This document shows, one piece after another, positions 4,805 through 27,273 of a DNA stretch of 28,583 nucleotides. The notes beneath the pieces were generated by a model. That model made no database searches. It saw only the letters and a list, made by a program, of their open reading frames with translations, and had not been told where the DNA came from. The stretch is from positions 1 through 28,583 of IMG/VR virus record IMGVR_UViG_3300028608_000061; one strand, given 5' to 3'. The position numbers and the translations under genes were made by a program. Source of the DNA: a virus. Position 1 is the stretch's first letter; each line of letters starts with the position of its first letter.

Positions 4805-4819
4805 GCGACACTTACACAG
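4805..4819 (-). promoter_or_regulatory. Stoperator-like site, exact 15-mer
   Basis: GCGACACTTACACAG on the plus strand, so CTGTGTAAGTGTCGC along transcription. It is identical to the 11093 site and the inverse of the 13730 site. It overlaps the stop codon of the 4812-5189 gene and precedes the reductase. Confidence 0.7.
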
Positions 4820-5189
4820 GTCGGCCGGTCAGCTCGCCGAGCACCACGATCAGGCGCTTCAGCGTTCCGGCGCTGTACGCGGCCAGGTCGGACACGAGCT
4901 TGAGCTGGGCCGCCAGCTCTTCCAGCGAGGCCGGCTCCAGCCTCTCGACGTAGGCGAGGCAGATGTCGATCCGCTCGTCGAGGTAGGGGATCGCCTCGTC
5001 GGCCTGGGCTCGCAGCCCGTCGAGCTGGAGCCGCTTCGCCTTGTCGGCGCGCTCCTCCTCGGTGTACGAGCGGTAGAAGATCAGGCCCTTGCTGTCCGTC
5101 CCCTCGTCGCGCCAGAAGTACAGCTCGCGCTCGTCGTCGAAGAAGTCGAACTGCTCCTCGGTCATGCTCTCTGGTGGCGCCTCGCTCAC
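4812..5189 (-). CDS. Hypothetical early protein, acidic and helical
   Basis: A 125-residue acidic protein. The GTG start overlaps the preceding stop by 4 bp. The N-terminal part is acidic and aromatic (EEQFDFFDDERELYFWRD), then helices rich in Glu and Leu follow (ERADKAKRLQLDGLRAQADE), which could form a coiled coil. No family was recognised. It is last in a run of tightly overlapping genes that includes the two sigma-like proteins, so a partner role in transcription is conceivable but unproven. Its TAA stop lies inside an operator-like site. Confidence 0.7.
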   Translation of the reverse strand: MSEAPPESMTEEQFDFFDDERELYFWRDEGTDSKGLIFYRSYTEEERADKAKRLQLDGLRAQADEAIPYLDERIDICLAYVERLEPASLEELAAQLKLVSDLAAYSAGTLKRLIVVLGELTGRPV

Positions 5190-5572
5190 GCGGCCTCATC
5201 CTCCAACTGGTCGTATCCGTCGATGTACTTGACGCCGTTCAGGAAGGCCGTGACCTTGCCGACCGCCCGCTCGGTCGCCCGCTGGGCTCCCGACTTCTGC
5301 ACGCCCCGCAGGAGTCCGATCTCCACGTAGCTGTAGTCGAGCCCGTACCGCAGGACGAGCGACTGGCGCTCGACCACGGTCAGCTCAGCCCGCAGCCACG
5401 CGGTCTTGATGTCGGCGATGTGGGCGTACAGCGTGTTCGCCTGCTTCGGGTTCGCCTTCACCTTCGGCATGTCCGCGTCCGGGGCGCCCTCCTGCTTGAT
5501 CCCGTACGCGACCTCGACGTCCCAGACGGCCGGCAAGATCTGCTCGACCAGGGCCCGGTTGTATCCGCTCAC
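5186..5572 (-). CDS. Sigma-70 region 4-like HTH protein
   Basis: A 128-residue protein whose residues about 63-112 (ELTVVERQSLVLRYGLDYSY through AVGKVTAFLNG) match the pattern of sigma-70 region 4: 'L...ER..L.LRYG' followed by a helix-turn-helix and a recognition-type helix. The N-terminal half is helical and not recognised. The GTG start overlaps the stop of the upstream gene by 4 bp and the end overlaps the next gene by 4 bp. The upstream neighbour looks like region 2, so together they may form a two-part sigma factor. An alternative is a simple HTH regulator. Confidence 0.6.
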   Translation of the reverse strand: MSGYNRALVEQILPAVWDVEVAYGIKQEGAPDADMPKVKANPKQANTLYAHIADIKTAWLRAELTVVERQSLVLRYGLDYSYVEIGLLRGVQKSGAQRATERAVGKVTAFLNGVKYIDGYDQLEDEAA

Positions 5573-5910
5573 GCACCCTCACCGAGGGCTTCGATGTTGG
5601 CCTCGTACGAGACCTGCTTCGAGCGGCGCTTCTCCTTGGTCAGGTGCTGGTCGCGCAGGCGCTGAGTCAGCCATCGATACAGGGCGCCGGGCCCCAGGCG
5701 CAGGGCGGTCTTCGCGTGCTCCGGCCTCGTGGCCAGCAGGACCAAGGCGTCCTGGTAGGCGTCCTCGTACTCCAGCACGGACGGGTACGAGTCGGCAGCC
5801 TTGCGGGCCGCTCGCTGGGCGATGCCGGCGACCTCTTCGGTGATGACGGACCAGTCGGCCCGCGCCTCCTCGGCGCTGCCGTAGGCGTGGGTGATCTCGA
5901 TGATGTTCAC
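5569..5910 (-). CDS. Sigma-70 region 2-like protein
   Basis: A 113-residue protein. I place the start at the GTG at 5908-5910 (VNIIEITHAYG), which overlaps the phosphoesterase stop by 4 bp like its neighbours; the frame is open further upstream but runs inside the phosphoesterase. Residues about 28-92 (AGIAQRAARKAAD, YEDAYQDALVLLA, then WLTQRLRDQHL) have the helix pattern of sigma-70 region 2, where a 'DLxQEaxL' motif binds the core polymerase. A basic stretch KEKRRSKQ follows. The assignment is by pattern and is moderate. Confidence 0.55.
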   Translation of the reverse strand: MNIIEITHAYGSAEEARADWSVITEEVAGIAQRAARKAADSYPSVLEYEDAYQDALVLLATRPEHAKTALRLGPGALYRWLTQRLRDQHLTKEKRRSKQVSYEANIEALGEGA

Positions 5911-7112
5911 TGGCTGACTACCTCCTTCACGGGCACGCGCCCGTCCTTGGTGATCGCGACGATGAGGCCGGGGGCCCCGGTTGTGCCCTTGCTGTGCCGC
6001 CACCACGTCGACTCGGACTCCATCGCGGGCGGCTGGAGGAACGTGCGCCACCCGTCCGTGTCGACGAACTCGTGGTGCAGGTGGCCGGCGAGGAGCAGGT
6101 CCACCAGGTGCATGGGCGACGCCTGGTTGAACGCCTGGCCCTTCCACCACTCGAACTGCTTGCCGGGCCTCCACTGATGGCCGTGCGCGTGGCCCACGAC
6201 CGTGCCCGAGCACTCGACGACCACGACCAGCTCGTCCGTGTCCGGGACGTAGAACTCGACATGACCGAACCGGTCGGGGTTGAGCTCGGCGGCGTCCTTG
6301 ACGGCGATCAGGGACTCGGTGTCGTGGCTGTCGTCGTACCGCGTTACGCCCTTGCCGTTGATCCGGACGGCCTCGCCGTGATTGCCGGGCACGGCGGCCA
6401 TGGTCAGGCGCTCACACAACGGCGCGAAAAGCAGGAGCGCATGGAGCATCACTCGCCTGGTGAGGCGGATCTGCTCGTTGAGCGTGAGCTGCGTACGCCA
6501 GGTGTTCGCACCGCCCTGCGAGACGAAGCCTTCGATGTGGTCGCCGAGCCACGCGATGTGCACGTGGCGGATGGCGAAGCGGTAGCGGTACAAGCTCAGC
6601 AGCTCGGCCGCCTCATCGAGGCAGTCGATCACGCGCTGGAGCGTGCCCTCCACGCCGTCGCCGTCGATCTTGCCGAACTGCATGTCGCCGAGGGCGACGA
6701 TGTAGGTGTGCGGCGAGCCGGCGACTCGCGGCCCCGTCTCCATCGGAACGATCGAGGTCGAGTCGATCGCCGCCAGCAGCTCGTCGATCGGGGGCCGAGC
6801 GTCTGCGACAGTTGCACACTGGGCGCGAGCGAAGGAGAAGCGGGTGGACACGCCCGTGTCCCCGTTGGCCATCGTCCACTCCGAGGAGCGGAAGCCGGTC
6901 ACGGTCCACTCGGCAGGGTCGAGGCCCTGACCCTTGAGGACGTCGGTCGCGGCGGTCTCGGTCTGCTCGAAGGTCGCGGCGCGCACGGTCACGTCCGCAG
7001 CGTCGCCCTTCACCTCGATCTGCCGGGTGAAGTCCTTCTCGGGGTCGGTCTGCCGGGCCGGGACGGTGGGGCCGACAGGCTTGGCCAGGAGTTCGTCAAG
7101 CAGCTCGCTCAC
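5907..7112 (-). CDS. Calcineurin-like metallophosphoesterase
   Basis: A 401-residue protein with the five metal-binding motifs of the family in order: GDMQFGK (D143), GDHIEG (D191), GNHGE (N244, H245), GHAHGH (H308, H310) and GHLHHE (H344, H346). It is thus a two-metal phosphoesterase, possibly acting on nucleic acid as Mre11/SbcD-type nucleases do. The N-terminal 135 residues are extra and not recognised. The GTG start has AAGGAGG 5 bp upstream, inside the end of the preceding gene. A weak copy of the operator motif lies in its coding region at 6805-6819. The fold call is strong; the substrate is unknown. Confidence 0.85.
   Translation of the reverse strand: MSELLDELLAKPVGPTVPARQTDPEKDFTRQIEVKGDAADVTVRAATFEQTETAATDVLKGQGLDPAEWTVTGFRSSEWTMANGDTGVSTRFSFARAQCATVADARPPIDELLAAIDSTSIVPMETGPRVAGSPHTYIVALGDMQFGKIDGDGVEGTLQRVIDCLDEAAELLSLYRYRFAIRHVHIAWLGDHIEGFVSQGGANTWRTQLTLNEQIRLTRRVMLHALLLFAPLCERLTMAAVPGNHGEAVRINGKGVTRYDDSHDTESLIAVKDAAELNPDRFGHVEFYVPDTDELVVVVECSGTVVGHAHGHQWRPGKQFEWWKGQAFNQASPMHLVDLLLAGHLHHEFVDTDGWRTFLQPPAMESESTWWRHSKGTTGAPGLIVAITKDGRVPVKEVVSQ
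6805..6819 (-). promoter_or_regulatory. Stoperator-like site, variant
   Basis: GCGACAGTTGCACAC, three mismatches to the 15-mer, in the common orientation and inside the phosphoesterase coding region. Confidence 0.4.
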
Positions 7113-7320
7113 TGGGGCCTCCTTCCTGCCGGAGTGCCCGGCGGTACGTGCGGATGGTGGTGGCGGATACGTCGTAGTCGAAGCGGCGGAGGGTGGCCGA
7201 CAGCCAGTCGGCCGACGTCTCGCCGAGCAGGTGAGGCACGAAGGCGAGCTGCTCGGCGAGCGTCATCGCGGCGAAGATGTCGATCAGGGTGGGGCCCGGA
7301 TCTCCGGGGAGCTCCGTCAC
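7096..7320 (-). CDS. Small HTH-like early protein
   Basis: A 74-residue protein with GTG start one base after the preceding stop. Residues 38-66 (DWLSATLRRFDYDVSATTIR) look like a helix-turn-helix, preceded by a Leu/Phe-rich helix. It overlaps the 5' end of the phosphoesterase gene by 17 bp and carries that gene's RBS. It is probably a small DNA-binding protein; no family was recognised. Confidence 0.6.
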   Translation of the reverse strand: MTELPGDPGPTLIDIFAAMTLAEQLAFVPHLLGETSADWLSATLRRFDYDVSATTIRTYRRALRQEGGPSERAA

Positions 7321-7321
7321 G

Positions 7322-7510
7322 TCACACGCCCCTGGCGTACGCGAGCTCGACGATCTCGGTATCTTCCGGCCAGGCCGTGAACTCGGTCCCGAAGAAGGCG
7401 AAGTACCCCGGCTCGTCGGGGTCGTGCTGGGTGTACCGGGCGAGCACCACCTCGTGCGTCCCGTGCACTACAACGTAGGCAAGTCGGCCATGCTTCAGTT
7501 CGGCAGCCAC
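7322..7510 (-). CDS. Small hypothetical early protein
   Basis: A 62-residue protein, GTG start directly after the TGA of the upstream gene. The alternating pattern (LAYVVVHGTHEVVLARYTQ) suggests a small beta-sheet protein. It is unrecognised. Support comes from tight packing in the operon. Confidence 0.55.
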   Translation of the reverse strand: MAAELKHGRLAYVVVHGTHEVVLARYTQHDPDEPGYFAFFGTEFTAWPEDTEIVELAYARGV

Positions 7511-7723
7511 TCAGTCGAACACCCCCATCTCTGAGGCCCAGTACACCTGGACCAACTCGAACGTCTCCTCCTTGGTGAAGCCCTCGGCTCGCAGCTCCTT
7601 GCGCAGGTCGCCCACGATCGAGGCGGCCCGCTTCACCGCGCCGTAGTGGTCGATGACCGGCGCGGTGTCGGTGACCTCGACTCCCTCCCAGTCCTCGGGG
7701 AAGTCCTCGTTCTCGGCGCTCAC
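7511..7723 (-). CDS. Small hypothetical acidic protein
   Basis: A 70-residue protein with a 4-bp GTGA overlap with the upstream gene. The acidic N-terminus (ENEDFPEDWEGVEV) is followed by helices (RAASIVGDLRKELRAEGFTK) ending in EMGVFD. It resembles small phage early proteins of unknown role. Confidence 0.55.
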   Translation of the reverse strand: MSAENEDFPEDWEGVEVTDTAPVIDHYGAVKRAASIVGDLRKELRAEGFTKEETFELVQVYWASEMGVFD

Positions 7724-8082
7724 TCGTCGACCGGGTTCTCGGCCAGGTGCAGGGCCGCGCCGGCAAGCTGAAGGAGGGCGTATCGCCGCTCCTGCTTGTA
7801 GCAGGCCAGGGCCTCGAAGGTGAGCGACAGGAGGAAGCCGTCGACCGTGTGCTCGCGGCCGTAGTGGCGGCCCCAGGCTGCCGCGCGGTCGTCGTGGCCG
7901 CGACGCCGGCTGGGCGCCGTGTCCTTGGTGGGCATCGGACCGAGGTGGCTCACCGCCTCGCGCATCTCGGCGAGGAGGGCCTCCATCGGGTCGGGCTTGC
8001 GGGCCGGCGCCTTCTTGCGGGGGGTCGGCTTGGCCTTGGGGGTCTCGGCGGTCTCGGTGTTCTCGTTCTCGATGTCTGCCAC
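7720..8082 (-). CDS. Hypothetical protein with basic Pro/Lys tail
   Basis: A 120-residue protein, GTG start with AAGGAGG 9 bp upstream. The N-terminal 35 residues are Thr/Pro/Lys-rich and disordered (KAKPTPRKKAPARKPDP). The rest is helical, including a YALLQLAGAALHLAENP segment. The basic tail suggests nucleic-acid contact. It sits directly after the primase TOPRIM gene. It is not recognised. Confidence 0.6.
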   Translation of the reverse strand: MADIENENTETAETPKAKPTPRKKAPARKPDPMEALLAEMREAVSHLGPMPTKDTAPSRRRGHDDRAAAWGRHYGREHTVDGFLLSLTFEALACYKQERRYALLQLAGAALHLAENPVDE

Positions 8083-8086
8083 TGGG

Positions 8087-8749
8087 TCAGTCCTCCTTGG
8101 TCTCGACGAGCGAGAGCACGTGCTCTGCTCCGTGGGTCATGTAGGTGTCCGTCACGTCGGCCTTCAGGCGTACGGCCTTGGCGGAACGAAGGGCGCGGGT
8201 GACCTTGCCGGTGAGTTCGGCGCCCGCGTCATCGGGGTCGGCCCAGGTCCACACGCGGCTGAAGCCGGCGAGCATCCTTCGATGCCTCCCGAACCACATG
8301 TTCGCGCCGGGGATGGCGACAGCCGGGAGGCCGAGCTTGTTCAGGATGACCGCGTCGAGCTCGCCCTCGGTGACGTGGATCTCGTCGCCCGCGCGGTGGA
8401 CGGCACCCACGTTGAACATGCGGGGGATGTCGTCCTTGATCGTGTTGTACTTGCCGTGGAAGTAGTCGCGGTGGTTGTGCTCCGCCAGGCAGCGGAAGCG
8501 CACGGTGAGCGGCTGCCCGTCCCGCCCGAGGTAGGGGATCGCGAGCATCCCTCGGTACTTCTCGTGTCCGGGGGCGGGGTCAGCGACGATGCCGAGCCGG
8601 AAGGCCATCGCCTCGTCCCGCCCGATCCCTCGCGCCATCAGGTAGCCCGCCGCCTCCGGGGTGAGGTGGCCCTGGTAGGTGGCTACCGCCTCCTCCAGCA
8701 TCTCCTTCTGGGATGTCGAGAGAGGCGTGAGCGGTTCGTGCTCGGCCAA
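8087..8749 (-). CDS. DNA primase, TOPRIM (catalytic) part
   Basis: A 220-residue protein with the DnaG-type RNA polymerase core. The N-terminal part contains AMAFRLGIVAD and GMLAIPYLGRDGQPLTVRFR. The TOPRIM motif follows: TEGELDAV with E128, then WADPDDAG with D171 and D173, which coordinate magnesium. It would synthesise RNA primers for phage replication. The start is TTG with AAGGAGG 9 bp upstream; no better ATG/GTG is placed there. The zinc-binding domain is encoded by the next gene upstream rather than fused, and no helicase-binding C-domain is present. Confidence 0.85.
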   Translation of the reverse strand: MAEHEPLTPLSTSQKEMLEEAVATYQGHLTPEAAGYLMARGIGRDEAMAFRLGIVADPAPGHEKYRGMLAIPYLGRDGQPLTVRFRCLAEHNHRDYFHGKYNTIKDDIPRMFNVGAVHRAGDEIHVTEGELDAVILNKLGLPAVAIPGANMWFGRHRRMLAGFSRVWTWADPDDAGAELTGKVTRALRSAKAVRLKADVTDTYMTHGAEHVLSLVETKED

Positions 8750-8763
8750 GCTGGTTCTCCTCC

Positions 8764-9198
8764 TTACTTACTGCGCTTCCAGGCGGGCACGTAGCCTCCG
8801 CCTGGCTTCTGTCCGGGCTTCTTGCCCGCTGCCTTCCGGCCGCCTCCGTAGCGGCTGGTGTAGCCCGTCTCCTTGGCGACCGCGCCTTCCTCCAGGCCGT
8901 GCTCCTTGGCGTACGCCTTGGCCTGCTTGAAGTCGATCGCCTTGTTGAGCTGCATGTCGTGGTACTTCTCGATGAGGGTGAAGCTGTCCCCGCCATTCCC
9001 GCAGGAGTGGCAGTTCCAGAGGCCCTCGTCGAGCCGGTAGCTCATGGACGGGGTGTTGTCGTCGTGGAGCGGGCACTTGGCCATGCCCGCGTTGCGCTGG
9101 TCGTTGAAGTCGACGTCGAAGTGGTGCATGGTCGCGTCGAGCAGGGGCTTGCTGTCGGACCCTTCGCCCGAGCGGTCGTCGATGCGGTGGAACCTCAC
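8764..9198 (-). CDS. DNA primase, CHC2 zinc-finger part
   Basis: A 144-residue protein with the DnaG-type zinc ribbon: C42-x2-H45 (KCPLHDDNTPSM) and C63-x2-C66 (WNCHSCGNGGD), a typical CHC2 primase signature that contacts single-stranded template DNA. The C-terminal 40 residues are Gly/Lys-rich and basic (GGRKAAGKKPGQKPGGG). Two GTGs are possible. I prefer 9196-9198, which gives the 4-bp stop/start overlap used throughout this operon, with GAGGGG 8 bp upstream; 9205-9207 would add three residues. It acts with the separate TOPRIM gene 14 bp downstream. Confidence 0.85.
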   Translation of the reverse strand: MRFHRIDDRSGEGSDSKPLLDATMHHFDVDFNDQRNAGMAKCPLHDDNTPSMSYRLDEGLWNCHSCGNGGDSFTLIEKYHDMQLNKAIDFKQAKAYAKEHGLEEGAVAKETGYTSRYGGGRKAAGKKPGQKPGGGYVPAWKRSK

Positions 9199-9332: not shown

Positions 9333-9706
9333 TGCGGGTCCAGCCCGAGGTAGTCCTCGACGGTCGTCAGCACGAACGCCTTGCGCCAGTTCTTGCCACG
9401 GCGCTTGACGACGACGATGGACTCGACGTTCTCCAGGTCCAGGCTCCGGTGCTTGGCGAAGTTCTCGCGCTCGACGATGGCCTCGCCGAGGAAGACGCCG
9501 GGCTCGAACTTGGCGTTCTTGGCCTCGATCACCAGGTACTTGCCGTCGCCCTCCCGGACGACCATGTCGCCCTCGTCCTCCTTGCCGGCCAGGCGGAGCG
9601 ACTCGACGTCGAACCCTTCGGAGCGCAGGCCCTCGCGGAGGTCCGTCTCCCACTGGGCGCCGACTCGCTTGTTGCGCTTGTTCCTGGCGGAGATGCTGTT
9701 GCTCAA
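9329..9706 (-). CDS. Holliday-junction-resolvase-like PD-(D/E)XK nuclease
   Basis: About 125 residues with the Hjc/endonuclease pattern: a basic N-terminus (SARNKRNKRVGAQWE), then E20, the acidic EGDMVV (D47) and the EAK pair (E61, K63) of a PD-(D/E)XK active site, with a final helix-strand region. It probably cuts branched phage DNA or trims ends. The start is uncertain: the TTG at 9704-9706 has GAGAGTAGG 8 bp upstream, while the GTG at 9713-9715 would be too close to it. An operator-like site (9701-9715) covers both candidate starts. Confidence 0.75.
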   Translation of the reverse strand: MSNSISARNKRNKRVGAQWETDLREGLRSEGFDVESLRLAGKEDEGDMVVREGDGKYLVIEAKNAKFEPGVFLGEAIVERENFAKHRSLDLENVESIVVVKRRGKNWRKAFVLTTVEDYLGLDPQ

Positions 9707-9715
9707 CTTGCACAC
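9701..9715 (-). promoter_or_regulatory. Stoperator-like site, core match
   Basis: GCTCAACTTGCACAC contains the exact core ACTTGCACA. It overlaps the translation start of the nuclease gene, in the common orientation. Confidence 0.5.
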
Positions 9716-9730
9716 CTACTCTCAAGTAAG

Positions 9731-9748
9731 GCCGGGCGGATGCCCGGC
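9731..9748 (-). terminator. Hairpin between ATPase and nuclease genes
   Basis: A perfect GCCGGGC-ATCC-GCCCGGC stem-loop on the minus strand, followed by TTACTT. It is a short terminator or attenuator candidate within the early operon. Confidence 0.45.
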
Positions 9749-9755
9749 TGTGTCT

Positions 9756-9770
9756 GCGACAGTATCACAC
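9756..9770 (-). promoter_or_regulatory. Stoperator-like site, variant
   Basis: GCGACAGTATCACAC keeps GCGACA and CACA with four central or terminal changes. It lies immediately after the TAA of the ATPase gene. Confidence 0.4.
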
Positions 9771-11038: not shown

Positions 11039-11073
11039 TGAGACCCCCTCTCTGCGGGCTGGCGCCCGCTCAA
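11035..11073 (-). CDS. Possible leader peptide before dCMP deaminase
   Basis: A 12-codon frame begins with TTG at 11071-11073, preceded by a strong AAGGGAGGAAC, and ends in a TGA that overlaps the deaminase GTG by 4 bp. The hairpin GCGGGC-GCCA-GCCCGC (about 11054-11069) lies within it. It may couple translation; it could also be chance. Confidence 0.3.
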   Translation of the reverse strand: MSGRQPAERGSQ

Positions 11074-11092
11074 GTTCCTCCCTTCTCTCGTC

Positions 11093-11107
11093 GCGACACT
11101 TACACAG
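11093..11107 (-). promoter_or_regulatory. Stoperator-like site, exact 15-mer
   Basis: GCGACACTTACACAG, identical to the 4805 site. It lies in the intergenic gap between the SSB-like gene and the dCMP deaminase leader. Confidence 0.7.
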
Positions 11108-11112
11108 TCAGA

Positions 11113-11612: not shown

Positions 11613-12095
11613 TCAGCCTGCGCTGAGCGCCTTGCCCTTCGCCTTGTAGGCGGTCATGACCGCCGGGTCAGCGAAGAAGGACTGGTTCTCCGCCCAGAGC
11701 TTCTTGAGCTCCGCGACGGTGGTCTTCTTGGCGATCTCGCCGAGGATGTACGCGTTGGGGTCCTCGGCCTTCGGCTCTGCGACACTTGCACTGCCGGACC
11801 AGGCGGAAGGCGACTGCTTCGCCGAGGCCGCCGCCCACGGGTCGCCCGCCGGCTTGGCCGGCTCGTCCGTCGTGGTCTCCTCGACGACCGTCGCGCCGAG
11901 CGACGTGGCGATCAGGGCCTTACCGTGCGCGATCTGCGTCGCGTTCACGACGACCGAGCTCAGGCTGAGACCTCGCTGGGTCTCAGGGTCCATCCCGAAA
12001 TACTCCAGGATCTCCGCCCTGACCTCCGGGGCGCCGCCCTCGAAGACTGCCCAGGTGTCCTCGTAGGTCTTGCCGTACTTGATCGTGATCTTCAC
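11613..12095 (-). CDS. Hypothetical early protein with disordered linker
   Basis: A 160-residue protein with three parts: an N-terminal domain (VKITIKYGKTYEDTWAVFEG) of about 75 residues, an Ala/Ser/Pro-rich linker (about 80-115), and a C-terminal helical region (AELKKLWAENQSFF) that resembles small C-terminal protein-protein domains. It lies between SSB-like and nuclease genes, so it may be a recombination or replication accessory. GTG start; GAGGAG lies about 11 bp upstream. A close operator-like variant is in its linker codons. Confidence 0.6.
   Translation of the reverse strand: MKITIKYGKTYEDTWAVFEGGAPEVRAEILEYFGMDPETQRGLSLSSVVVNATQIAHGKALIATSLGATVVEETTTDEPAKPAGDPWAAASAKQSPSAWSGSASVAEPKAEDPNAYILGEIAKKTTVAELKKLWAENQSFFADPAVMTAYKAKGKALSAG
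11779..11793 (-). promoter_or_regulatory. Stoperator-like site, variant
   Basis: GCGACACTTGCACTG, two mismatches to the 15-mer, inside the coding region of the 11613-12095 gene, common orientation. Confidence 0.5.
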
Positions 12096-12160: not shown

Positions 12161-12199
12161 CCTTCGCAGTTTGTCTCCGGGGGCTTCCCCGTTGACTTT

Positions 12200-12214
12200 G
12201 TTCAACTTACACAC
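12200..12214 (-). promoter_or_regulatory. Stoperator-like site, core match
   Basis: GTTCAACTTACACAC contains the exact core ACTTACACA. It overlaps the TAA stop of the Cas4-like gene, upstream of the internal promoter. Confidence 0.55.
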
Positions 12215-13193
12215 CTTGCGATGCGAAGTCAACTTCAGTCGATGTGGCCTGCGTCACGAACGGCATCATGGCCTTCCGGGACAACCCGCGCATCTCGCGG
12301 ATGGTCAGTGCAAGCTGTGCTGCCTTCCACCCGATGTTCAGGTCGACCCAGTACAACTTACACACCCCCTCGCCAGAAGGCAAGTGGACGATGATGCCCC
12401 AGTCCTGGTTCACGGGCTCCGGCACGGTGTACGCCTTCGCGGCCTCCTCGGGGGAGACCTCGACCTTCTTCCACTTCTGGAAGCCCTTCTCGTCCTGGTC
12501 CCGGATCGGGGCAGGGAAGAGGGTGTGGTCGTACTTCTTCGCCCGCGAGTAGATCGCGAGCTGCATCGCCATCTTCAGGCCGCCGTAGTCCACGGAGCCC
12601 GTCTTCAGGTCCCCGATGAAGCGGCCCGAGATGGGCTTGCCGAGCGGGCCCAGGCCCTCGTAGCCGTAGGTGCGGTCGTAGGTGCCACCGACCCCCAGCT
12701 CGGAGCAGACGACGAACTGCTCGACCGCGTGGACGGTGAGCGGTGCAGTCTCGATCAGGTAGGCAGCCATGTCCTCGATGTCCTGATCAGAGACGTGCGA
12801 GGGGAGCTGCTCCCCACGGTCCACGTACTCCGACAGGTCATGAAGGTAGGTGCCCTTCTCGCGCTTGTCGTTGGCGCCTGAGACGTCCATCGCGCGCTCG
12901 GCCAAGGCGTCGAGCTTCTTCTTGTGCGCCTTGTTGTCCGGGTCCAGCTCGGCAACGGCGTCCAGAAGGGACGGGCGCTTCTGCGCGCCGACCAGGACCA
13001 TCCTCTTGCCCCAGTCCACGAGGTTGCTCTTGTCCTCGATGCAGTCGATGAAGGTCGTGGTGCGGACCAGGGCCTTCGGCTTGCCGCCGGCCTCGGGGAT
13101 GACCAGCGGCTTACCGTGACCGTCTCGCGGGACGGCGTCGTTCGGATGAAGGGGCTTGCTCTGCTGTGGGATCTCGATCAGATTCAGGGCCAC
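12207..13193 (-). CDS. Cas4/RecB-family PD-(D/E)XK exonuclease
   Basis: A 328-residue protein with the RecB-nuclease pattern: KGTYLHDL (H118), an E near 158-165, YDR (D173), FIGDLKTG with D195 and K197, then MQLAIYSRA with Q211 and Y215, the QxxxY motif. It probably processes DNA ends in recombination or replication, as do phage Cas4-like proteins. There are no Fe-S cysteines in the Cas4 arrangement, so a plain RecB-type nuclease is equally possible. The GTG start directly follows the previous TGA, with GAGGAG 6 bp upstream. The N-terminal MALNLIEIP is shared with the SSB-like protein. Confidence 0.75.
   Translation of the reverse strand: MALNLIEIPQQSKPLHPNDAVPRDGHGKPLVIPEAGGKPKALVRTTTFIDCIEDKSNLVDWGKRMVLVGAQKRPSLLDAVAELDPDNKAHKKKLDALAERAMDVSGANDKREKGTYLHDLSEYVDRGEQLPSHVSDQDIEDMAAYLIETAPLTVHAVEQFVVCSELGVGGTYDRTYGYEGLGPLGKPISGRFIGDLKTGSVDYGGLKMAMQLAIYSRAKKYDHTLFPAPIRDQDEKGFQKWKKVEVSPEEAAKAYTVPEPVNQDWGIIVHLPSGEGVCKLYWVDLNIGWKAAQLALTIREMRGLSRKAMMPFVTQATSTEVDFASQGV
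12351..12365 (-). promoter_or_regulatory. Stoperator-like site, core match
   Basis: GTACAACTTACACAC with the exact core ACTTACACA, inside the Cas4-like gene 150 bp from the 12200 site. Confidence 0.5.
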
Positions 13194-13729: not shown

Positions 13730-13744
13730 CTGTGTAAGTGTCGC
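13730..13744 (+). promoter_or_regulatory. Stoperator-like operator at the early promoter, exact 15-mer
   Basis: CTGTGTAAGTGTCGC on the plus strand, the exact reverse complement of the 4805 and 11093 sites. It lies between the predicted early transcription start and the first early gene, so binding here would block initiation or early elongation. A partner core (CTTGCAC, 13758-13764) in the other orientation overlaps the -10. Confidence 0.7.
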
Positions 13745-13755
13745 TGATGTGGTCC

Positions 13756-13785
13756 ATCTTGCACGGAACTTCAACGATCTGTCAA
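13756..13785 (-). promoter_or_regulatory. Early leftward promoter
   Basis: Minus-strand -35 TTGACA (13780-13785), 18-bp spacer, -10 CAAGAT (13756-13761), with transcription expected near 13749. Direct repeats TCGTTGAA flank the -35 (plus-strand TTCAACGA at 13770-13777 and 13794-13801). The 13713-13962 gap has no gene; it holds this promoter, the operator and the repressor terminator. Confidence 0.55.
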
Positions 13786-13962: not shown

Positions 13963-14421
13963 CTACTCGCGGTCGGCGTTGGGGCGGGGCGTCGTCTTCT
14001 CGTCGGGCCGGCGGATGATGTCGTCATCCTTCGGCTCGCGCGGGATGTAGAAGAAGCCCTCGTCAGTGTCCGGATCGTAGTGGACGACCGCCTTCTCATC
14101 GTTCAGCATCTCCAGCCAGTTCGCCAGCCGGGACGTGTCCGTCTCGGTCAGCTCCTTGCCTGCCCGGCGCCGGGCCTCCGCCCGCAGCATCGCGAGCGGG
14201 TACGCCCAGCGGTGCTCCTCCTTCACGAACCAGGGGATGAGATCGTCGTCACGCACGATCCGCCGGTCCAGTCCGCGTCGCCGCCGGAAGTTCCCCCACA
14301 TTGAAGGAACTGTGTCGATTCCGTACTTACGCTTGTACTCAGCAATCATCCAAGCGTATGTGCGCCCCTCCTCGAACCATCGGACAACTTCCGATTCGTC
14401 TTGGATCTTGCGCTTGCCCAT
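13963..14421 (-). CDS. L5 gp71-like immunity repressor
   Basis: A 152-residue basic protein. The N-terminal 50 residues (VVRWFEEGRTYAWMIAEY, then SMWGNFRRRRGL) form a helix-turn-helix. The C-terminal domain has a pattern I recall from the mycobacteriophage L5 repressor gp71: 'RLANWLEMLND' against its 'RLLSWWKMLRD', then VVHYDPDTDEGFFYIPRE against a similar 'FDP...FRYVPRD', then DDDIIRR..EKT. That family uses two DNA-binding domains to recognise asymmetric 13-bp sites dispersed over the genome. It lies beside the early promoter, is followed by a terminator, and has operator-like sites at 14456 and around it, so autoregulation is likely. Start ATG; GAAGGG precedes it. The similarity is recalled, not computed. 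Confidence 0.7.
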   Translation of the reverse strand: MGKRKIQDESEVVRWFEEGRTYAWMIAEYKRKYGIDTVPSMWGNFRRRRGLDRRIVRDDDLIPWFVKEEHRWAYPLAMLRAEARRRAGKELTETDTSRLANWLEMLNDEKAVVHYDPDTDEGFFYIPREPKDDDIIRRPDEKTTPRPNADRE

Positions 14422-14455
14422 GTCCCTTCTCTCTCCTCGGTGATCTTGTGAATCT

Positions 14456-14470
14456 GTAACACTTCCACAG
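14456..14470 (-). promoter_or_regulatory. Stoperator-like site upstream of the repressor gene
   Basis: GTAACACTTCCACAG, three mismatches to the 15-mer, 35 bp upstream of the repressor ATG and next to a TACTGT (minus strand) that could be its -10. It suggests autoregulation. Confidence 0.5.
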
Positions 14471-14500
14471 TACTGCACCCAGGTCAACTGTGCACATGTA

Positions 14501-14537: not shown

Positions 14538-14846
14538 GTGAAGCTCCAGGTGACAGCATGCGACATCGACAAGAAGTTCCCGGCGAAGACTTACACAATC
14601 ACAGCCAGCGACGGTCGCAGCATCTCGAAGGATCTGTGCGAAGAGCACGCCGAGCCCTTCGAGGAGTGGCTGGAGGAGGCGGACGTGAAGGAGGAGCCCG
14701 AGCCGGAGTGTGCACCGGAGGCGAAGGCCAAGCCCGAGCCGGCCCCCGCACCGAAGACCACGAAGCGAGCGCCGGCCAAGAAGACGGCCGCTCGACGGCG
14801 ACCGAAGATCATGAGCCTGGAAGAGATCGAAGCCCAGAAGAACTGA
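14538..14846 (+). CDS. Small zinc-ribbon-like protein with histone-like basic tail
   Basis: A 102-residue protein and the only plus-strand gene among the phage genes. I start it at GTG 14538, with GAGGGGGAAG just upstream; an upstream in-frame ATG at 14490 lacks an RBS. The N-terminus (MKLQVTACDIDKK, TYTITASDGR, DLCEEHAEPFEEWLEE) resembles actinobacterial proteins with a small zinc site; here C8, C34 and H37 remain, and the first CxxC is incomplete. The tail is Lys/Ala/Pro-rich (KTTKRAPAKKTAARRRPK), like Lsr2 or histone H1 tails. It is probably a DNA-binding protein. It is divergent from the repressor, with an operator-like site in its 5' codons. Confidence 0.7.
   Translation: MKLQVTACDIDKKFPAKTYTITASDGRSISKDLCEEHAEPFEEWLEEADVKEEPEPECAPEAKAKPEPAPAPKTTKRAPAKKTAARRRPKIMSLEEIEAQKN
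14584..14598 (-). promoter_or_regulatory. Stoperator-like site, core match
   Basis: CGAAGACTTACACAA with the exact core ACTTACACA, about 45 bp inside the divergent plus-strand gene. Confidence 0.45.
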
Positions 14847-14863
14847 GACGGCAGAGACGACAA

Positions 14864-16261: not shown

Positions 16262-16633
16262 TCAGGAGTTGCTTGTAGCGACGGTCACGGCAATGTGTCC
16301 GTCGAGGCGTTCGGCCACGGCCAGGCGCTCGGCGCGCTCATGGGCCAGGTCGGTACGCAGGCCGCCGATCTCGCGGCCGTGCTGGCGCAGGGCCTCGTCG
16401 TGACGAGCCTGGCCGGCGAGCACTGCTTCGAGTCCGTCGATCACGCGGTCGAGGTCGTCTCGCAGGTTTGTGGAGTGGGTGTTCGCGACCTGGTCGCGTG
16501 CCTCCTGTGCGTTCTCGCGCACTTCGTTGATCGCGTTGTTCTGCCTGCGCAGGAGCTCTACGAGGGTGCCGATCAGCGTCACGGCTACGGTGCCTCCTGC
16601 TGTGACGAGTGCAACTTGCACAGTGGGGTCCAT
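16262..16633 (-). CDS. Small membrane-anchored coiled-coil phage protein
   Basis: A 123-residue protein with one N-terminal hydrophobic helix (VALVTAGGTVAVTLIGTLVE) and a long polar helix region (residues about 30-115) with heptad-like Leu/Ala, for example 'ERLAVAERLDGH'. This matches the DUF2746-like proteins found next to endolysins in actinobacteriophages, possibly a holin partner or spanin-like anchor. I use ATG 16631-16633, with GGGGTGA 8 bp upstream; a GTG at 16643-16645 overlapping the previous stop would add four residues. An operator-like site overlaps its first codons. Confidence 0.65.
   Translation of the reverse strand: MDPTVQVALVTAGGTVAVTLIGTLVELLRRQNNAINEVRENAQEARDQVANTHSTNLRDDLDRVIDGLEAVLAGQARHDEALRQHGREIGGLRTDLAHERAERLAVAERLDGHIAVTVATSNS
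16609..16623 (-). promoter_or_regulatory. Stoperator-like site, core match
   Basis: GTGCAACTTGCACAG holds the exact core ACTTGCACA and is locally palindromic (GTGCAA-C-TTGCAC). It lies in the first codons of the 16262-16633 gene. Confidence 0.5.
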
Positions 16634-17953: not shown

Positions 17954-18448
17954 TTACTCGGAGTAGGGGCCGACGTCCTCGACGACCAGGACGGCGCCGC
18001 CGTCTGCGATGTAGCGGACCTGGCCGTAAGTGGCCGACGCCCGGCCGGAGTAGATCGCGATGCCCACGGTCGTCTGCCCGGCGGGCGGGTTGACGATGAA
18101 CCAGCTCGCGCTTACGCCGGTCGCCGAGCTGGAGTCGTCGTCGTAGACGGTCACCCGGTAGTCACCCACGCCCGTGCCGGACGTCGTGACGGTGGAGCCG
18201 GGGGCCCACCTGCATCGGGTGACCAGGCTGTTCTTGCCGTACCGGTTCACGTCGCCGGCCTGGTCGCCGGTCCCGTTGGTGTCGGCCCGGCCGACCCGAA
18301 GCGTCACCTTGTAGATGCGCTTCGGGGCGGCCGTGAACGGGAGTTGGTACACCATCGTCTCGGACTCGCTGACGTACGGGGAGTCGTCGAGGCCGGTTGT
18401 CAGGGCGACCACGCCTCGCGGCATGTGGTCTGCGGACAGAAGTCCCAC
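17954..18448 (-). CDS. Minor tail/virion protein, beta-rich
   Basis: A 164-residue protein that begins GLLSADHMPRGVVAL and continues as a beta-sandwich-like domain (VTLRVGRADTNGTGDQ, YRVTVYDDD, TTVGIAIYSGRAS). It resembles small virion proteins between fibre genes in actinobacteriophages. I chose the GTG at 18446-18448 because AAGGAG lies 7 bp upstream; the GTG at 18452 is too close to it. The RBS overlaps the stop of the preceding gene. An operator-like site covers the RBS-start interval. It may be a carbohydrate-binding fibre component. Confidence 0.65.
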   Translation of the reverse strand: MGLLSADHMPRGVVALTTGLDDSPYVSESETMVYQLPFTAAPKRIYKVTLRVGRADTNGTGDQAGDVNRYGKNSLVTRCRWAPGSTVTTSGTGVGDYRVTVYDDDSSSATGVSASWFIVNPPAGQTTVGIAIYSGRASATYGQVRYIADGGAVLVVEDVGPYSE

Positions 18449-18456
18449 TTGCACAC
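18442..18456 (-). promoter_or_regulatory. Stoperator-like site, core match
   Basis: GTCCCACTTGCACAC with the exact core ACTTGCACA, over the start codon of the 17954-18448 gene. Part of the match comes from the RBS and GTG, so it is less secure. Confidence 0.4.
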
Positions 18457-18459
18457 TCC

Positions 18460-20934: not shown

Positions 20935-20938
20935 CTGT

Positions 20939-22150: not shown

Positions 22151-23023
22151 TCAGATCACCATCCACTTCCGTGGCCGCCAGGAGCACGTGATCTTCGAGG
22201 CGGCCCCGATCTCTTCGAGCTGAGCGGTCGCGGTGGACAGACCGGGCTTGACGGTCCAGAAGCGCGGGGCCTCTTCGAGCTCGGCGTAGCGGTTCTCGCC
22301 GTCCTGGTCGACGACGGTCCCCTTGCGGGTGTCGATGATCAGGCGCTGATTCGCGGCGAGCGTTCCGGACCAGGCCAGGCGCTGAACCCGCCCGTCCTTG
22401 TCGGGGGGCGAGACGGCCAGGAACTTGGTGCCCGGTCCGGTGATCTCCCAGATGGGGTACGCCTCTGCGGTGCCCCGGTTGTCGAGCTGGATCTCGCCGA
22501 TCGCCTGCGATGCCGCAACGGGCACCGAGGCGAGCGAGGAGAGGAAGCCGGCTGTCGACTCATCTCCGCCGATGTACCGGATCTGAGCCTCCGAGGAGGT
22601 CCAGTACGGGTCCGGCGAGCGGAAGGTGATGACGGTCTGGAACTCGCGCTCACCTGTGGTGTCGGAGCCGTAGGCGTACTCGCCGCCGCCGACGCGGTAG
22701 ACCTCAGTGGTCCACCTGGTGCCGTCGTCGTCGAGCAGGGTCAGGGTGCACTGACCGTCCAGCGCGAGGGCCAGCCGGTCAGTGAGTTCCTGGAGGTGTC
22801 GACGATCCCGGGCCAGGATCTCCAGAGGTACGTCGATGTCCCGCGTGAGGACTCGGCGCCTCCGGAAGACGGCGCCATCTCCGGCGCCTTCAAGCCACTG
22901 GACGGAGACGGGGGGAAGGCCGAAGCCTGTCGCCCCCGTCTTGGCCTGGTAGCCCAGGCCCTTGTCCATGATCTCGTTGAGGTCGAGCGTGTCCGTCTCA
23001 CTGGCGAGCAGGAGCTTGGGCAC
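22151..23023 (-). CDS. Distal tail / phage tail family protein
   Basis: A 290-residue protein of the siphovirus tail-component type: a conserved N-terminal part (LPPVSVQWLEGAGDG, RRRRVLTRDIDVPLEIL) followed by a galectin-like C-terminal region (AYPIWEITGPGTKF, RLIIDTRKGTVV). It connects the tail tube to the tip. It follows the tape measure gene (stop at 23030) and precedes the Gp37-like gene, the expected order. GTG start. Confidence 0.85.
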   Translation of the reverse strand: MPKLLLASETDTLDLNEIMDKGLGYQAKTGATGFGLPPVSVQWLEGAGDGAVFRRRRVLTRDIDVPLEILARDRRHLQELTDRLALALDGQCTLTLLDDDGTRWTTEVYRVGGGEYAYGSDTTGEREFQTVITFRSPDPYWTSSEAQIRYIGGDESTAGFLSSLASVPVAASQAIGEIQLDNRGTAEAYPIWEITGPGTKFLAVSPPDKDGRVQRLAWSGTLAANQRLIIDTRKGTVVDQDGENRYAELEEAPRFWTVKPGLSTATAQLEEIGAASKITCSWRPRKWMVI

Positions 23024-23029
23024 TGATCA

Positions 23030-26000
23030 TCACCATCCAAACCTTGCTCGGTTGCCAGCGGCGAACAGATCCTCTTCGGACCCGAGGGAGGAGCCAGGCG
23101 CCGCGTAGTAGTTGAGGACCTTCGTGGTGCCGCCTCCTTCCGAGCCGGCGAGTGCGCCGTTCACGGCCGCCGAGAGGCTGCCTGATGCGCTGACCTGGCC
23201 GACGCCGAGAGCGTCGAACTCGGTACCGGCGACGTCCTCCGTCAGACCCCGCAGGGTCTTGCGGACTGCGTCGTACCGGGACTCCAGGCCGTTGATGAAG
23301 CCGTCGATGACGAGCTTTCCGGCGTTCACCAGGAGGACGCGGTCCAGGGACTCCGGACCCTTCCAGTCGGTGAGCTTGCTGGTGAGGTCGCCGAGCTTGT
23401 CCTTGACGGTGTTGAACATGCCGGTGATGCCGTCGATGAAGCCCTGGATGAGCTTCTTACCGGCGTCCTTCAGCGTGGAGCCGAGGGAGCCGAGCGCGGA
23501 CTTCGCCTTGCCAGGCAGCTCCTTGACCTTGGCCACGGCCTTGCCGATGTACTCGGTCACGGTCGTCACGAGCTTGTAGAGCATCGTGGCCGCCGTGTCC
23601 TTGATCGAGTTCCAGGCCGAGGAGAAGAAGCCCTTGATCGACGAGAGACCCGAGGTCACCTTCGACACGGCGCCGCTGAAGAACGACGTGACGCCGCGCG
23701 TGATGGACGCCCAGCCGTCCGAGAAGAACTTCCCGATGGCCTTGAGGCCGTCCATGAACAGGCCCTTGGCGCCGGTCAGGAACACGCCGATGTATCCACG
23801 GATCGCCGCGAAGGCGCCCGTGAAGATGTCGGCGATGGCCTTCCAGGCGGACTTGAACAGGGCGCCGATCGCCTTGAACGCCTTGCCGGCCGTGCCCAGG
23901 ATTCCGACGTTCAGGAAGACTTCGAGGAGGCCGAGGATGACGTCCCAGATGCCCTTGAGGAGGCCCTTGATGCCCTCCCAGAGCTGGTCGAAGCCTTCCT
24001 GGAAGGTGCTCCAGTCGTTGCTCCAGAGGCCCTCGAAGATGCCCCAGATCATCGTGAAGTAGCCGACGATGTAGTCCCACACGCCGACGAAGATCTCCTT
24101 CAGACCTTCGAGGATCAGGCCCACACCGTTGATCGCAGCGACCAGCGCGCCGGCCAGGATCTCCACCAGGAACTGAATGATGGGGACCAGGATCGGCATG
24201 ATGAAGTCGACGACCGCGAGGAGCGCCTGAAGGAAGGGCTGGAGGGCCTCGACGACGCGAGTGATCGCGTCGGACAGCGGAGGCAGGACGGCAGCGATGA
24301 CCGTGGACAGGATCTCGATCAGGGGACCGAGGACTGCCGAGAGGATCTGGAGCGCGATCTGGACGATCGGCTGGAGCGCGGTGAAGATCTGCGCCAGGGC
24401 CTCGCCGAGGATCGGCAGGATCGGAGCCAAGGCGCCGATGAGCTGCTCGACGAGCGGGGCGACCGCAGCGACGATCATCTGGAAGAGCTGGGCGATCGGG
24501 GGCAGGATCGCAGCGAGCAGCCCGAAGGCTGCACCCAGCATCTCGCCGACGACCGGTACGAGCTGGTTGATCACCGGAGTGAGCATCTGGAAGGCGGACG
24601 TCAGTGCACCGCCCAGGAGCTCGACGATCGGGATGACCATCGGGGCGAGGGTGGTGAAGGCGTTCGCCAGCGGGATGATCGCAGCGGTGACGAGTCCGGC
24701 GAAGACCGGGAGCATCGCGGCGACGACCTGCATCAGCGCGCCGAGAGCCTGGCCGAGCGGAGCCATCGCGGGAGCGAGGAGCTGCACGGCCTGGAAGAGC
24801 CCGGTGAACATGGCCTCGATGCCGTCAGTCACGGCGGCCTGGGACAGGGCATCAGCGATGGCGCCGAGCGCCACGCCGAGGATCGAGCCAGCCTGCGGGA
24901 GGATGGTCGTCAGGAGCGAGCCGAGCTCGATGAAGAGGTTCTTCACGGCCGGGCCGGCGCCGTTGGCGAGGTTGCTCATCGCGAGGTGGGCCGCCGTGAA
25001 GACGTCGACCATGCCGCTCTGGAAGCCGTCCGAGTCGACGACGTCATGGATGCTCGCGAGGGAGTCGCGGAGCATTCCCAGGGTGGAGCCGCCAGCCTCG
25101 GTGGCTGCACGGGAGAGGCCGGCGAGGATGCCGCCCGTCTCGTACAGGACACCACCGAGATCCTTCAGCGAGGTGATGCCCGCGTCGATCTCTTCCTGGA
25201 GTCCGATCTGCCCCTTCTTCTGGAGCCAGACGTCGAACTGCTTGGAGATGTCGACGAACCAGCCGGCCAGGTTCGGCAGGTAGGAGGCGCCGACTTCGCC
25301 GAGCTGGGCGATGATCGAGGAGAAGACCTTGGTGCCGCCAGTGGCGGTGGCGATCGACTCGTTGAGGTAGCCGAACATCTTGTCGACCAGCGAGGGGTCG
25401 AGGGCTGCCGTCAGGTCGGTGGCGAACGAGCCGAAGAACTTCCCGATCGCAGTGGACGAGGAGGCGAAGCCCTTCTCGAAGCGAGGCAGGAGGTTGTCGA
25501 CCAGGTCACTGATCGGCTTGCGGGCCTCCGCCCAGAAGTTCGAGCTGATCGTGTTCTGCATGTCCGCGAGCGCGGCCTTGGCCTGCGGGACTTCCTTGTT
25601 GAAGTCCTTGAACGCTGCGACGGTGATTCCGATGCCGACTGCGAAGCCGCCGAGGAGGCCGGGCATGGTCAGGGCCAAGGCCCCGATCTGCGCGAGTGAC
25701 GCGGACAGCGCGAAGAGGTTGCTCGCCGAGGTGAGCGCCATCGCAGCCAGGCCGGCCATTGCCGACGCCAGCGAACCGATGATCGGCACGCTCTTGTCGA
25801 GGTTCTTCAGGATGTTGCTGAACCTCTCGAAGAGGTTGTTCAGCACGCGGATACCGGAGAGAGCGGCCAGCGCGGTGGCCACCTTGGCGACAGCTGCCTC
25901 GTTCAGCTTCGGGATGATCGAGACCGTGCGGGGACGGGTGAGGATGCCGAGGCGCGCGTTCGTGGTGGCGGAGCTCAGGGCCGAGACGTCCGGCTCGATC

Positions 26001-26431
26001 TTGATCGTGAGCGGGGAGTTGTCGTCCCGCCAGTCCTTGAGCTGGTCGGTCATCTTCCGAAGCGACTGAGCCGAGATCTCCACATCGACCGCACCGGCGT
26101 CCAAGGTGGACTGGAGCTTCACCTTCTGGCCGTTCTTGGCCCGGTTGGTGTAGGCGCGGATCGCCCGCGCCAGCTCGCCGTTCATGGTGCTCGTGTCGAT
26201 GCGGGTGTAGATCCGCACCTTGCGCGCGTCCGACTGACGGTTGCGCTGGTTGATCTTGCCGATCTCGCCGAGCATCTCGCGCTCGAAGCCGGCCATGTTG
26301 GGCATGACCTGCACTTCGACCTTGAGCTGCTTCTCGATCTTGGTGAGCTGCTTGCTCGCCTTGCTTCGGAACTCGTCGGTGTCGGGTAGCACACGGACGC
26401 TGACGCGACCGATTACCTGACCCTGGGGCAT
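23030..26431 (-). CDS. Tape measure protein
   Basis: A 1133-residue protein that sets tail length and fills the tail tube. The N-terminal 200 residues are basic and helical (FRSKASKQLTKIEKQLKVEV). A hydrophobic stretch runs through residues about 215-275, and a long central part (about 500-830) is built from repeating amphipathic segments such as 'LAPILPILGEALAQIF'. The end has the family signature: 'KLTDWKGPESLDRVLL', 'GKLVIDGFINGLE', 'VRKTLRGLTEDV'. It is preceded by the tail chaperones and followed by the distal tail protein. ATG start with GGAGGT upstream. Confidence 0.95.
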   Translation of the reverse strand: MPQGQVIGRVSVRVLPDTDEFRSKASKQLTKIEKQLKVEVQVMPNMAGFEREMLGEIGKINQRNRQSDARKVRIYTRIDTSTMNGELARAIRAYTNRAKNGQKVKLQSTLDAGAVDVEISAQSLRKMTDQLKDWRDDNSPLTIKIEPDVSALSSATTNARLGILTRPRTVSIIPKLNEAAVAKVATALAALSGIRVLNNLFERFSNILKNLDKSVPIIGSLASAMAGLAAMALTSASNLFALSASLAQIGALALTMPGLLGGFAVGIGITVAAFKDFNKEVPQAKAALADMQNTISSNFWAEARKPISDLVDNLLPRFEKGFASSSTAIGKFFGSFATDLTAALDPSLVDKMFGYLNESIATATGGTKVFSSIIAQLGEVGASYLPNLAGWFVDISKQFDVWLQKKGQIGLQEEIDAGITSLKDLGGVLYETGGILAGLSRAATEAGGSTLGMLRDSLASIHDVVDSDGFQSGMVDVFTAAHLAMSNLANGAGPAVKNLFIELGSLLTTILPQAGSILGVALGAIADALSQAAVTDGIEAMFTGLFQAVQLLAPAMAPLGQALGALMQVVAAMLPVFAGLVTAAIIPLANAFTTLAPMVIPIVELLGGALTSAFQMLTPVINQLVPVVGEMLGAAFGLLAAILPPIAQLFQMIVAAVAPLVEQLIGALAPILPILGEALAQIFTALQPIVQIALQILSAVLGPLIEILSTVIAAVLPPLSDAITRVVEALQPFLQALLAVVDFIMPILVPIIQFLVEILAGALVAAINGVGLILEGLKEIFVGVWDYIVGYFTMIWGIFEGLWSNDWSTFQEGFDQLWEGIKGLLKGIWDVILGLLEVFLNVGILGTAGKAFKAIGALFKSAWKAIADIFTGAFAAIRGYIGVFLTGAKGLFMDGLKAIGKFFSDGWASITRGVTSFFSGAVSKVTSGLSSIKGFFSSAWNSIKDTAATMLYKLVTTVTEYIGKAVAKVKELPGKAKSALGSLGSTLKDAGKKLIQGFIDGITGMFNTVKDKLGDLTSKLTDWKGPESLDRVLLVNAGKLVIDGFINGLESRYDAVRKTLRGLTEDVAGTEFDALGVGQVSASGSLSAAVNGALAGSEGGGTTKVLNYYAAPGSSLGSEEDLFAAGNRARFGW

Positions 26432-26434
26432 GGG

Positions 26435-27165
26435 CTACCTCCGGGCTGTGAACCGCTTGTAGATCTCCGCGACGGAGACCTTCTTGCCGGCCGTCTTGGG
26501 GCCGCTGGACTTGGTGGGCTTCTTCAGCGCCTTCGGGCGCGGCCATGCCGGGATCTTGGGCGCCTTGCCCTTGGCCCACTGGCCGGTCGACCGGGTGTTC
26601 TGGTTGATCGCATCGAAGAGGTCGGCCGAGAGGTGACGGTCGATACCCCAGCCGAAGTGCTCCCGGCCGCCCGATGCGAGAGCGACGGTCAGGGAGGTGT
26701 CGGGCAGCCTCCGCACAAGCGCGAGGACGAACAGCGGGGAGGGGCCTCGGCCCTCGATCACGTCCACCAGGTCGATGCCGTAGTGGAAGCGGAGGTCGGC
26801 GTACAGCCCCTCCCCGAAGTCGTCGATCAGGCGGCAGAGGCTGAGGCTTCCCCCACCTGCGCACCCTCGATGTAGGTGTTGAAGATCTGCGCCAGGACCG
26901 CGAGGTCGTCGCCCACGGCCTTCAGGAGGACTTCGCCCTTCTTGGGGTGGTCGACGACGATGAGGATGGCCTCGGCCAGGAGCGCCTCCTGGTCCACGCC
27001 GTCAGCGTCCATCCGGTCCTGGATGCCCTGGAGCTGCTCGCGCTTCTCCTTCGACAGGCGGAGCGGGTTGAGCAGGCGGGCGGTGGTCTTCTCGTCCACC
27101 ACGATGTCGGTCGAGCTGTACTTCGAGTCGGCTGCGGCGCGGATGTCGTCGAGAGTGAACTGCAT
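26435..27165 (-). CDS. Tail assembly chaperone, long form by -1 frameshift (gpGT-like)
   Basis: The frameshifted product joins the short chaperone (from 27165) to the frame that ends at 26435. At G_GGG_GAA (minus strand, 26854-26848) a -1 slip changes GAA to GGA and the new frame reads GSLSLCRLIDDFGEGLYADL, the classic start of the T part ('LIDDFG..LYADL.FHYG'). It continues through LVRRLPDTSLTVALASGG and HLSADLFDAINQNT, then a basic tail. The frame relation is exactly -1 and there is no good separate start for T. The chaperones coat the tape measure during tail assembly. Confidence 0.85.
26827..27165 (-). CDS. Tail assembly chaperone, short form (gpG-like)
   Basis: A 112-residue acidic protein. 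I start it at ATG 27163-27165 (MQFTLDDIRAAAD), with GGAGGT 10 bp upstream; a TTG at 27183 would have no RBS. It has helical segments (LSKEKREQLQGIQDR, EVLLKAVGDDLAVLAQIFNT) typical of the small tail chaperone, and it ends shortly after the slippery sequence. It is located between the major tail protein and the tape measure, the standard position. Confidence 0.85.
   Translation of the reverse strand: MQFTLDDIRAAADSKYSSTDIVVDEKTTARLLNPLRLSKEKREQLQGIQDRMDADGVDQEALLAEAILIVVDHPKKGEVLLKAVGDDLAVLAQIFNTYIEGAQVGEASASAA
26848..26854 (-). promoter_or_regulatory. -1 programmed frameshift slippery site
   Basis: GGGGGAA on the minus strand, in frame as G_GGG_GAA after CAG GTG. The P-site glycine tRNA can re-pair with GGG one base back, giving the chaperone fusion. 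Confidence 0.75.
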
Positions 27166-27205
27166 GGGGTTGCGGACCTCCAAGTTGTAGGGAATGCGAT
27201 GCGGT

Positions 27206-27260
27206 GCGGACCTTGAGGAGAGGGCCCCCGGAGGGGCCCCGGCCGTGCAAGGAGGTCCGC
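27206..27260. terminator. Long hairpin between major tail and chaperone genes
   Basis: The outer arms GCGGACCT (27206-27213) and AGGTCCGC (27253-27260) enclose a strong GGGCCCC (27222-27228) / GGGGCCC (27233-27239) stem. There is no T-run on the minus strand, so it may be a partial terminator that lowers chaperone expression relative to the abundant major tail protein, or an RNA-processing site. Confidence 0.55.
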
Positions 27261-27273
27261 GTCACTTGCACAG
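27259..27273 (-). promoter_or_regulatory. Stoperator-like site, close variant
   Basis: GCGTCACTTGCACAG, two mismatches to the 15-mer, intergenic after the major tail gene and touching the long hairpin. An inverted core GTGCAAG is 14 bp away (27245-27251). Confidence 0.6.

Follow-up and report, generated by a model that had tools for sequence, protein, structure and literature searches.

Along this stretch of viral DNA a short asymmetric word recurs at widely spaced positions, which raises the question of what kind of signal it is and what reads it. The stretch, here called the window, is a 28.6-kb virus record (28,583 nucleotides) and a fragment of a larger phage genome. By its DNA similarity, it is a piece of an R4-like (Arquatrovirinae) Streptomyces phage: used as the query, it matches R4 and phiELB20 at ∼93% over 85–86% of its length, and Paedore and Loofah at 91% over 89%, with a gene order reversed relative to all four records. 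It encompasses, in order, tail genes, lysis, Lsr2, a repressor and replication genes, and extends past the ribonucleotide reductase; the R4 genes across it all match minus-strand genes here, Lsr2 excepted.

A recurrent and strongly oriented motif

The earlier note had listed three exact copies of a 15-mer (at 4805, 11093 and, inverted, 13730) and ten ACTTRCACA cores, and all of them are indeed present. Dinucleotide shuffling gives 0.03 expected cores, and none of 100 shuffles reached ten, so that the rough estimate of about 0.1 made at the time was cautious. The site is ∼15 bp long and asymmetric, with the consensus TGTGYAAGTGTNGCA when read with transcription; GCGACACTTACACAG is the antisense reading of the same site, shifted by one base. 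With an independent 15-bp matrix, trained only on the phages Sentinel, Issmi, Janus, Alvy, Pablito and Amethyst, 13 sites in the window score 13 or more, against 0.15 on average in order-3 Markov sequences and 0.1–0.3 in shuffles, and R4 itself has 28 such sites against 0.55. The four listed variants (6805, 9756, 11779 and 14456) are scored as sites, too. As claimed, nearly all copies face the same way: 12 of the 13 strong sites lie on the minus (sense) strand, and only that at 13731–13745 is on the plus strand.

Host DNA, the control proposed in the earlier note, is not enriched. Allowing at most one mismatch, the motif occurs four times in a 9.2-Mb Streptomyces genome and six times in one of 8.2 Mb, in both cases more rarely than a control read backward (37 and 36 times, respectively), while it occurs 22 times in the 51 kb of R4. 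An artefact of chance or codon usage, for which speaks that one listed core (14589) looks like a chance hit, is refuted by the shuffles and by the sister lineages and host genomes that lack the motif, and its probability is negligible. The core at 14589 itself exists, but was rejected as a site: it falls within the Lsr2-like gene, its fit to the motif breaks down in the 3′ half, it scores 5.0 against a threshold of 12.4, and Loofah has no exact core at the equivalent position. It is probably a chance match.

A two-domain repressor related to that of cluster A

The protein encoded at 13963–14421, which had been put forward as the repressor of the network, is 94.7% identical to the R4 repressor gp29, is encoded at the same position, between lysis and early genes, and belongs to phrog_3929 (“transcriptional repressor”); a search of Pfam returned no family for it. 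It is also homologous, across both DNA-binding domains, to the repressor of the cluster A mycobacteriophage TipsytheTRex (phmmer, 1e-06; profile, 8e-09), which was crystallised on its stoperator DNA (7r6r; PMC9283540). Its AlphaFold model (mean pLDDT 85) has a helix-turn-helix (HTH) and a second domain, and 7r6r is the only PDB match to the predicted fold at E ≤ 0.001 (Z 11.2, residues 2–144); the rmsd of 6.6 Å points to a different placement of the two domains. W50 and R108, essential in the TipsytheTRex repressor (PMC9283540), align with W42 and R98 when the offset of 20 in the PDB chain numbering is taken into account, and both are invariant in 31 relatives. A difference from cluster A is found at R45, which aligns with T37, a position that is not conserved. 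Repressor homology, the layout and orientation of the sites, and the orphan genes described below together argue for this protein as the repressor of the network.

Sites at gene boundaries and putative promoters

The predicted sites and associated features are collected in Table 1. In the public annotation of R4, 25 of 28 sites are concordant with local transcription (p = 3e-5), the exceptions being the inverted site before gp30 and two in the non-coding right end; these two, we infer, would face rightward genes if the genome circularises. Twenty-four of the 28 are intergenic or at most 20 bp from a gene end, against 4.4 at random. A few sites are intragenic and far from any gene boundary (6804 and 11778 in the window), which counts against a reading as operators and stoperators.

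Table 1. Predicted repressor sites and associated features in the window.
Position	Strand	Feature	Score or context
3843–3857	-	Weak possible site within ribonucleotide reductase, may be chance	14.7
4804–4818	-	Predicted stoperator, 3′ end of gp48, before ribonucleotide reductase	22.3
6804–6818	-	Site within exonuclease gp45 gene, TGTGCAACTGTCGCA	17.8
9700–9714	-	Predicted stoperator at start of gp37 (Holliday junction resolvase)	22.7
9755–9769	-	Weaker variant site upstream of gp37, TGTGATACTGTCGCA	17.9 (R4 matrix)
11092–11106	-	Predicted stoperator after gp34	22.7
11778–11792	-	Site within gp33, AGTGCAAGTGTCGCA	16.7
12199–12213	-	Site at gp32 start, operator or stoperator	22.7; TTGACT 19 bp upstream
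12350–12364	-	Predicted stoperator near 3′ end of Cas4-like exonuclease gene	21.2
13731–13745	+	Inverted predicted operator, TGTGTAAGTGTCGCT, just past putative gp30 early promoter	24.2
13756–13785	-	Putative early promoter of gp30, TTGACA-N18-CAAGAT	Read directly in the sequence
13963–14421	-	Immunity repressor gene, 152 aa, N-terminal HTH and stoperator domain	R4 gp29/L5 gp71 homologue
14455–14469	-	Predicted operator upstream of repressor gene, TGTGGAAGTGTTACA	18 bp after TTGACC box at 14482–14487
16608–16622	-	Predicted stoperator just after tail gene gp24, within gp25 per R4 annotation	21.8
18441–18455	-	Predicted stoperator at gp23 start	22.6
27258–27272	-	Predicted stoperator after major tail protein gene	21.3

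A TTGAC box is found 18–19 bp upstream of 30 of 348 sites in the R4 group and of 14 of 98 in the Camvirus group, with one or few occurrences at most other offsets in both groups. The sites thus linked include those at the repressor promoter and at the head of the R4 leftward early operon, and sites abut such boxes at putative early and repressor promoters alike. Since only a subset carries the box, the sites appear to comprise a class of promoter-linked operators and one of stand-alone stoperators. The site at 14455–14469 likely serves repressor autoregulation, and its arrangement upstream of the repressor gene is also kept at an orphan chromosomal repressor. The inverted site at 13731–13745 lies ∼10 bp after its promoter-like sequence, of which TTGACA-N17/18-CARGAT forms are seen at the gp30 junction of several relatives. 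R4 also has a copy of the site at the gp32 start.

Upstream of gp37 (9700–9769), we observed a GC-rich hairpin, gccgggcatccgcccggc, between the two predicted repressor sites; it is possibly a terminator between two roadblocks, and the two-site arrangement recurs in most relatives.

Could the motif instead be a promoter element of the phage, for example a -10 box recognised by a sigma factor of the host or the phage, before middle or late genes? The sites face transcription and lie near gene starts, ∼10% of them have the TTGAC box, and R4 has an annotated sigma factor (gp47). Against this, most sites have neither a -35 box nor any other conserved flank, many are found at gene ends, directly on either side of stop codons, and the copy at the gp30 junction is inverted in 13 of 17 phages. 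Together with the evidence from other lineages and from orphan repressors given below, this makes a promoter element improbable. A general promoter derived from the flank information was likewise rejected, as the -35 box accompanies only a subset of the sites.

The motif very probably represents the predicted operators and stoperators of the phage's own immunity repressor, which would silence the prophage. In a lysogen, the repressor would bind ∼28 sites genome-wide, ∼13 of them in the window fragment. Where sites overlap or abut promoters (at the repressor promoter, the gp30 early promoter and the R4 leftward early operon), they would act as operators at which bound repressor blocks initiation, with the repressor itself autoregulated, while stand-alone, sense-oriented sites at gene ends and starts would act as stoperators. 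By analogy with the solved homologue, a monomer would grip one asymmetric site with its HTH and stoperator domain and, once bound, would stop RNA polymerase leaking through the prophage. Binding of the motif by this repressor, a stop of elongation upon binding and the split into operators and stoperators are all inferred, and for L5-type phages roadblocking is the model that is accepted (PMC9283540, PMC6550527).

The same junctions hold different motifs across phage lineages

We counted over-represented 8-mers in each genome without a prior motif, and in most genomes, including the cluster A control, the top enriched words are motif-like and lineage-specific. The word is TGTGYAAGTG in Arequatrovirus, Sentinelvirus, Caelumvirus, Janusvirus and Omarvirus, TGTGTAAGT and GTGATAGTGT in Celiavirus, GTGTGYAACCTT in Likavirus (weaker in BryanRecycles), TGTGACAGTGTGA in Camvirus, TGTGATAGNNTGA in phiHau3 and GGTGGGTGTCAAG in EricB, the cluster A control. 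Exact TGTGYAAGT falls from 13–27 copies per genome in some groups to 1–4 in others. In the Celiavirus Itza, the two forms are of similar frequency, and the -10-box-like GTGATAGTGT may indicate operators that overlap promoters or a specificity in transition.

The orthologous junctions 3′ of gp34, 5′ of gp37, 3′ of TerL and 3′ of gp79 each hold the motif of the respective lineage; the first two are filled in 17 of 17 genomes and the last two in all 16 that include them. That other lineages have a different sequence at the same junctions speaks against a promoter element. Motif distances follow the distances between repressors (r = 0.74; partial Mantel controlling for other proteins, 0.43, p = 0.002), but those between gp37 proteins slightly more closely (r = 0.80), for which reason a co-evolution of the motif with the repressor specifically is supported, but not proven.

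A dispersed DNA signal unrelated to immunity, be it for recombination, packaging, replication or the start of translation, would also yield a short, strand-biased motif scattered through a phage genome. However, the distance of the sites to start codons varies widely, several copies follow stop codons, the motif is limited to some lineages, and copies lie upstream of repressor genes that stand alone in chromosomes, so that we regard such a signal as very improbable.

Orphan and prophage repressors in bacterial chromosomes

Relatives of the repressor are encoded in 14 of 393 Streptomyces genomes (15 genes). Ten of the 15 are surrounded by tail, exonuclease or replication genes of R4-like prophages, and the other five, one of them a fragment, are orphans without R4-like neighbours apart from an occasional Lsr2 and, near the fragment, endolysin-like matches. 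The orphan loci noted in bacterial chromosomes overall are L118/L139 (Streptomyces mangrovisoli), L140, L142, L148/L123 and L153, as well as L119, L121 and L122; L121 is near a contig end, L153 is a fragment, and an Lsr2-like neighbour is found in several. Two orphans (L139 and L140) have a high-scoring R4-type site 41–44 bp before the start codon, with TGTGGAAGTGTCGCA in S. mangrovisoli and TGTGCAAGTGTCGCG in genome G045. A third has a similar CGTGGAAGTGTAATC, which scores under the threshold, and in a fourth TGTGCAAGGTTGACA lies 88 bp upstream. The 9.2-Mb genome of S. mangrovisoli has only four near-matches, of which the site before its orphan is one. Because the motif survives where the phage is gone, it is best read as the predicted operator of the repressor itself and would otherwise be hard to explain. 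That the motif is retained at orphan repressors after the loss of the phage genes also counts against a promoter element.

In the window, an Lsr2-like gene (∼14540–14850, plus strand) adjoins the repressor gene in divergent orientation. As this arrangement is also kept beside several orphan chromosomal repressors, it hints at a functional pair.

Two further observations concern R4-like repressors. A Cellulomonas contig (L120:1–20441) harbours an R4-like prophage region, in which tail, repressor and replication genes are accompanied by eight copies of GTGCAAGT, one exact TGTGCAAGTGACGCA among them; judged by these copies, the R4-type site also occurs outside Streptomyces. The Streptomyces genome G197 encodes two R4-like repressors (L144 and L146) in separate prophage-like regions, and a search of both neighbourhoods yielded no clear R4-type motif, which suggests that these repressors have yet other site specificities.

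Relation to known repressor systems

In the Streptomyces phage phiC31, the CIS repressor sites are inverted repeats. The window resembles that system in having many dispersed repressor sites in a Streptomyces phage, but differs from it in that its site is asymmetric, not an inverted repeat, and its repressor of the L5 type. The 2013 abstract by Smith and colleagues reportedly describes the R4-like phages and cluster A as having similar repressor-stoperator regulatory systems.

The window shares with cluster A phages (L5, Bxb1, TipsytheTRex) a homologous two-domain repressor and a layout of some 20–30 asymmetric, mainly intergenic sites in mostly one orientation relative to transcription (28 in R4, 13 in the window fragment), and may also share with them sites at early and repressor promoters, which here are putative. 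It differs in the site, which is the ∼15-bp TGTGYAAGTGTNGCA and not GGTGGMTGTCAAG. In line with the earlier note, which had seen the layout of L5 in another sequence, the matrix of the cluster A phage EricB finds only 0–2 sites of the L5-like 13-bp consensus in R4-like genomes; site specificity within cluster A varies between subclusters. We thus consider the system in the window as related to that of L5 and probably working alike, but, given these 0–2 sites, not as a member with L5 specificity. A homology between R4 and L5 sites via TGTGCAAG/TGTCAAG was rejected, because the cluster A motif is antisense and the R4 motif sense to transcription.

With the R4 system (Arquatrovirinae, PhagesDB cluster BD), on the other hand, the window shares the repressor, the motif, the junctions and the orientation, and differs in few single sites and, as far as we found, in nothing essential. 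According to PMC10276819, which refers to Smith et al. (2013, J Bacteriol 195:4924), R4 possesses a repressor-stoperator system; twelve R4-like phages carry eight or more R4 stoperator sites, as the former also reports; cluster A-like immunity systems in Streptomyces phages were also noted elsewhere (PMC6550527). Therefore, while the stoperator-like reading of the earlier note is supported, its description of the network as undescribed is not: the finding itself is already known, and one more member of the R4 family of systems is confirmed here.

What we add is modest and all computational. It comprises a complete map of the predicted sites in this phage, the inverted predicted operator at gp30, the orphan repressors, and the observation that orthologous junctions keep a site while its motif varies with the phage lineage.

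Implications for phage and host immunity

It is conceivable, if rather doubtful, that some actinobacterial chromosomes carry domesticated R4-type repressors as a stand-alone resistance, which would silence incoming phages at dozens of stoperators, and that the drift of the phage motif would reflect escape from such domesticated repressors and from rival prophages. The orphan chromosomal repressors are in any case a testable lead for prophage-derived host immunity. Among the 16 Streptomyces phages compared, the same junctions feature at least four natural site specificities; this set is suited to testing how a two-domain monomeric repressor changes its specificity.
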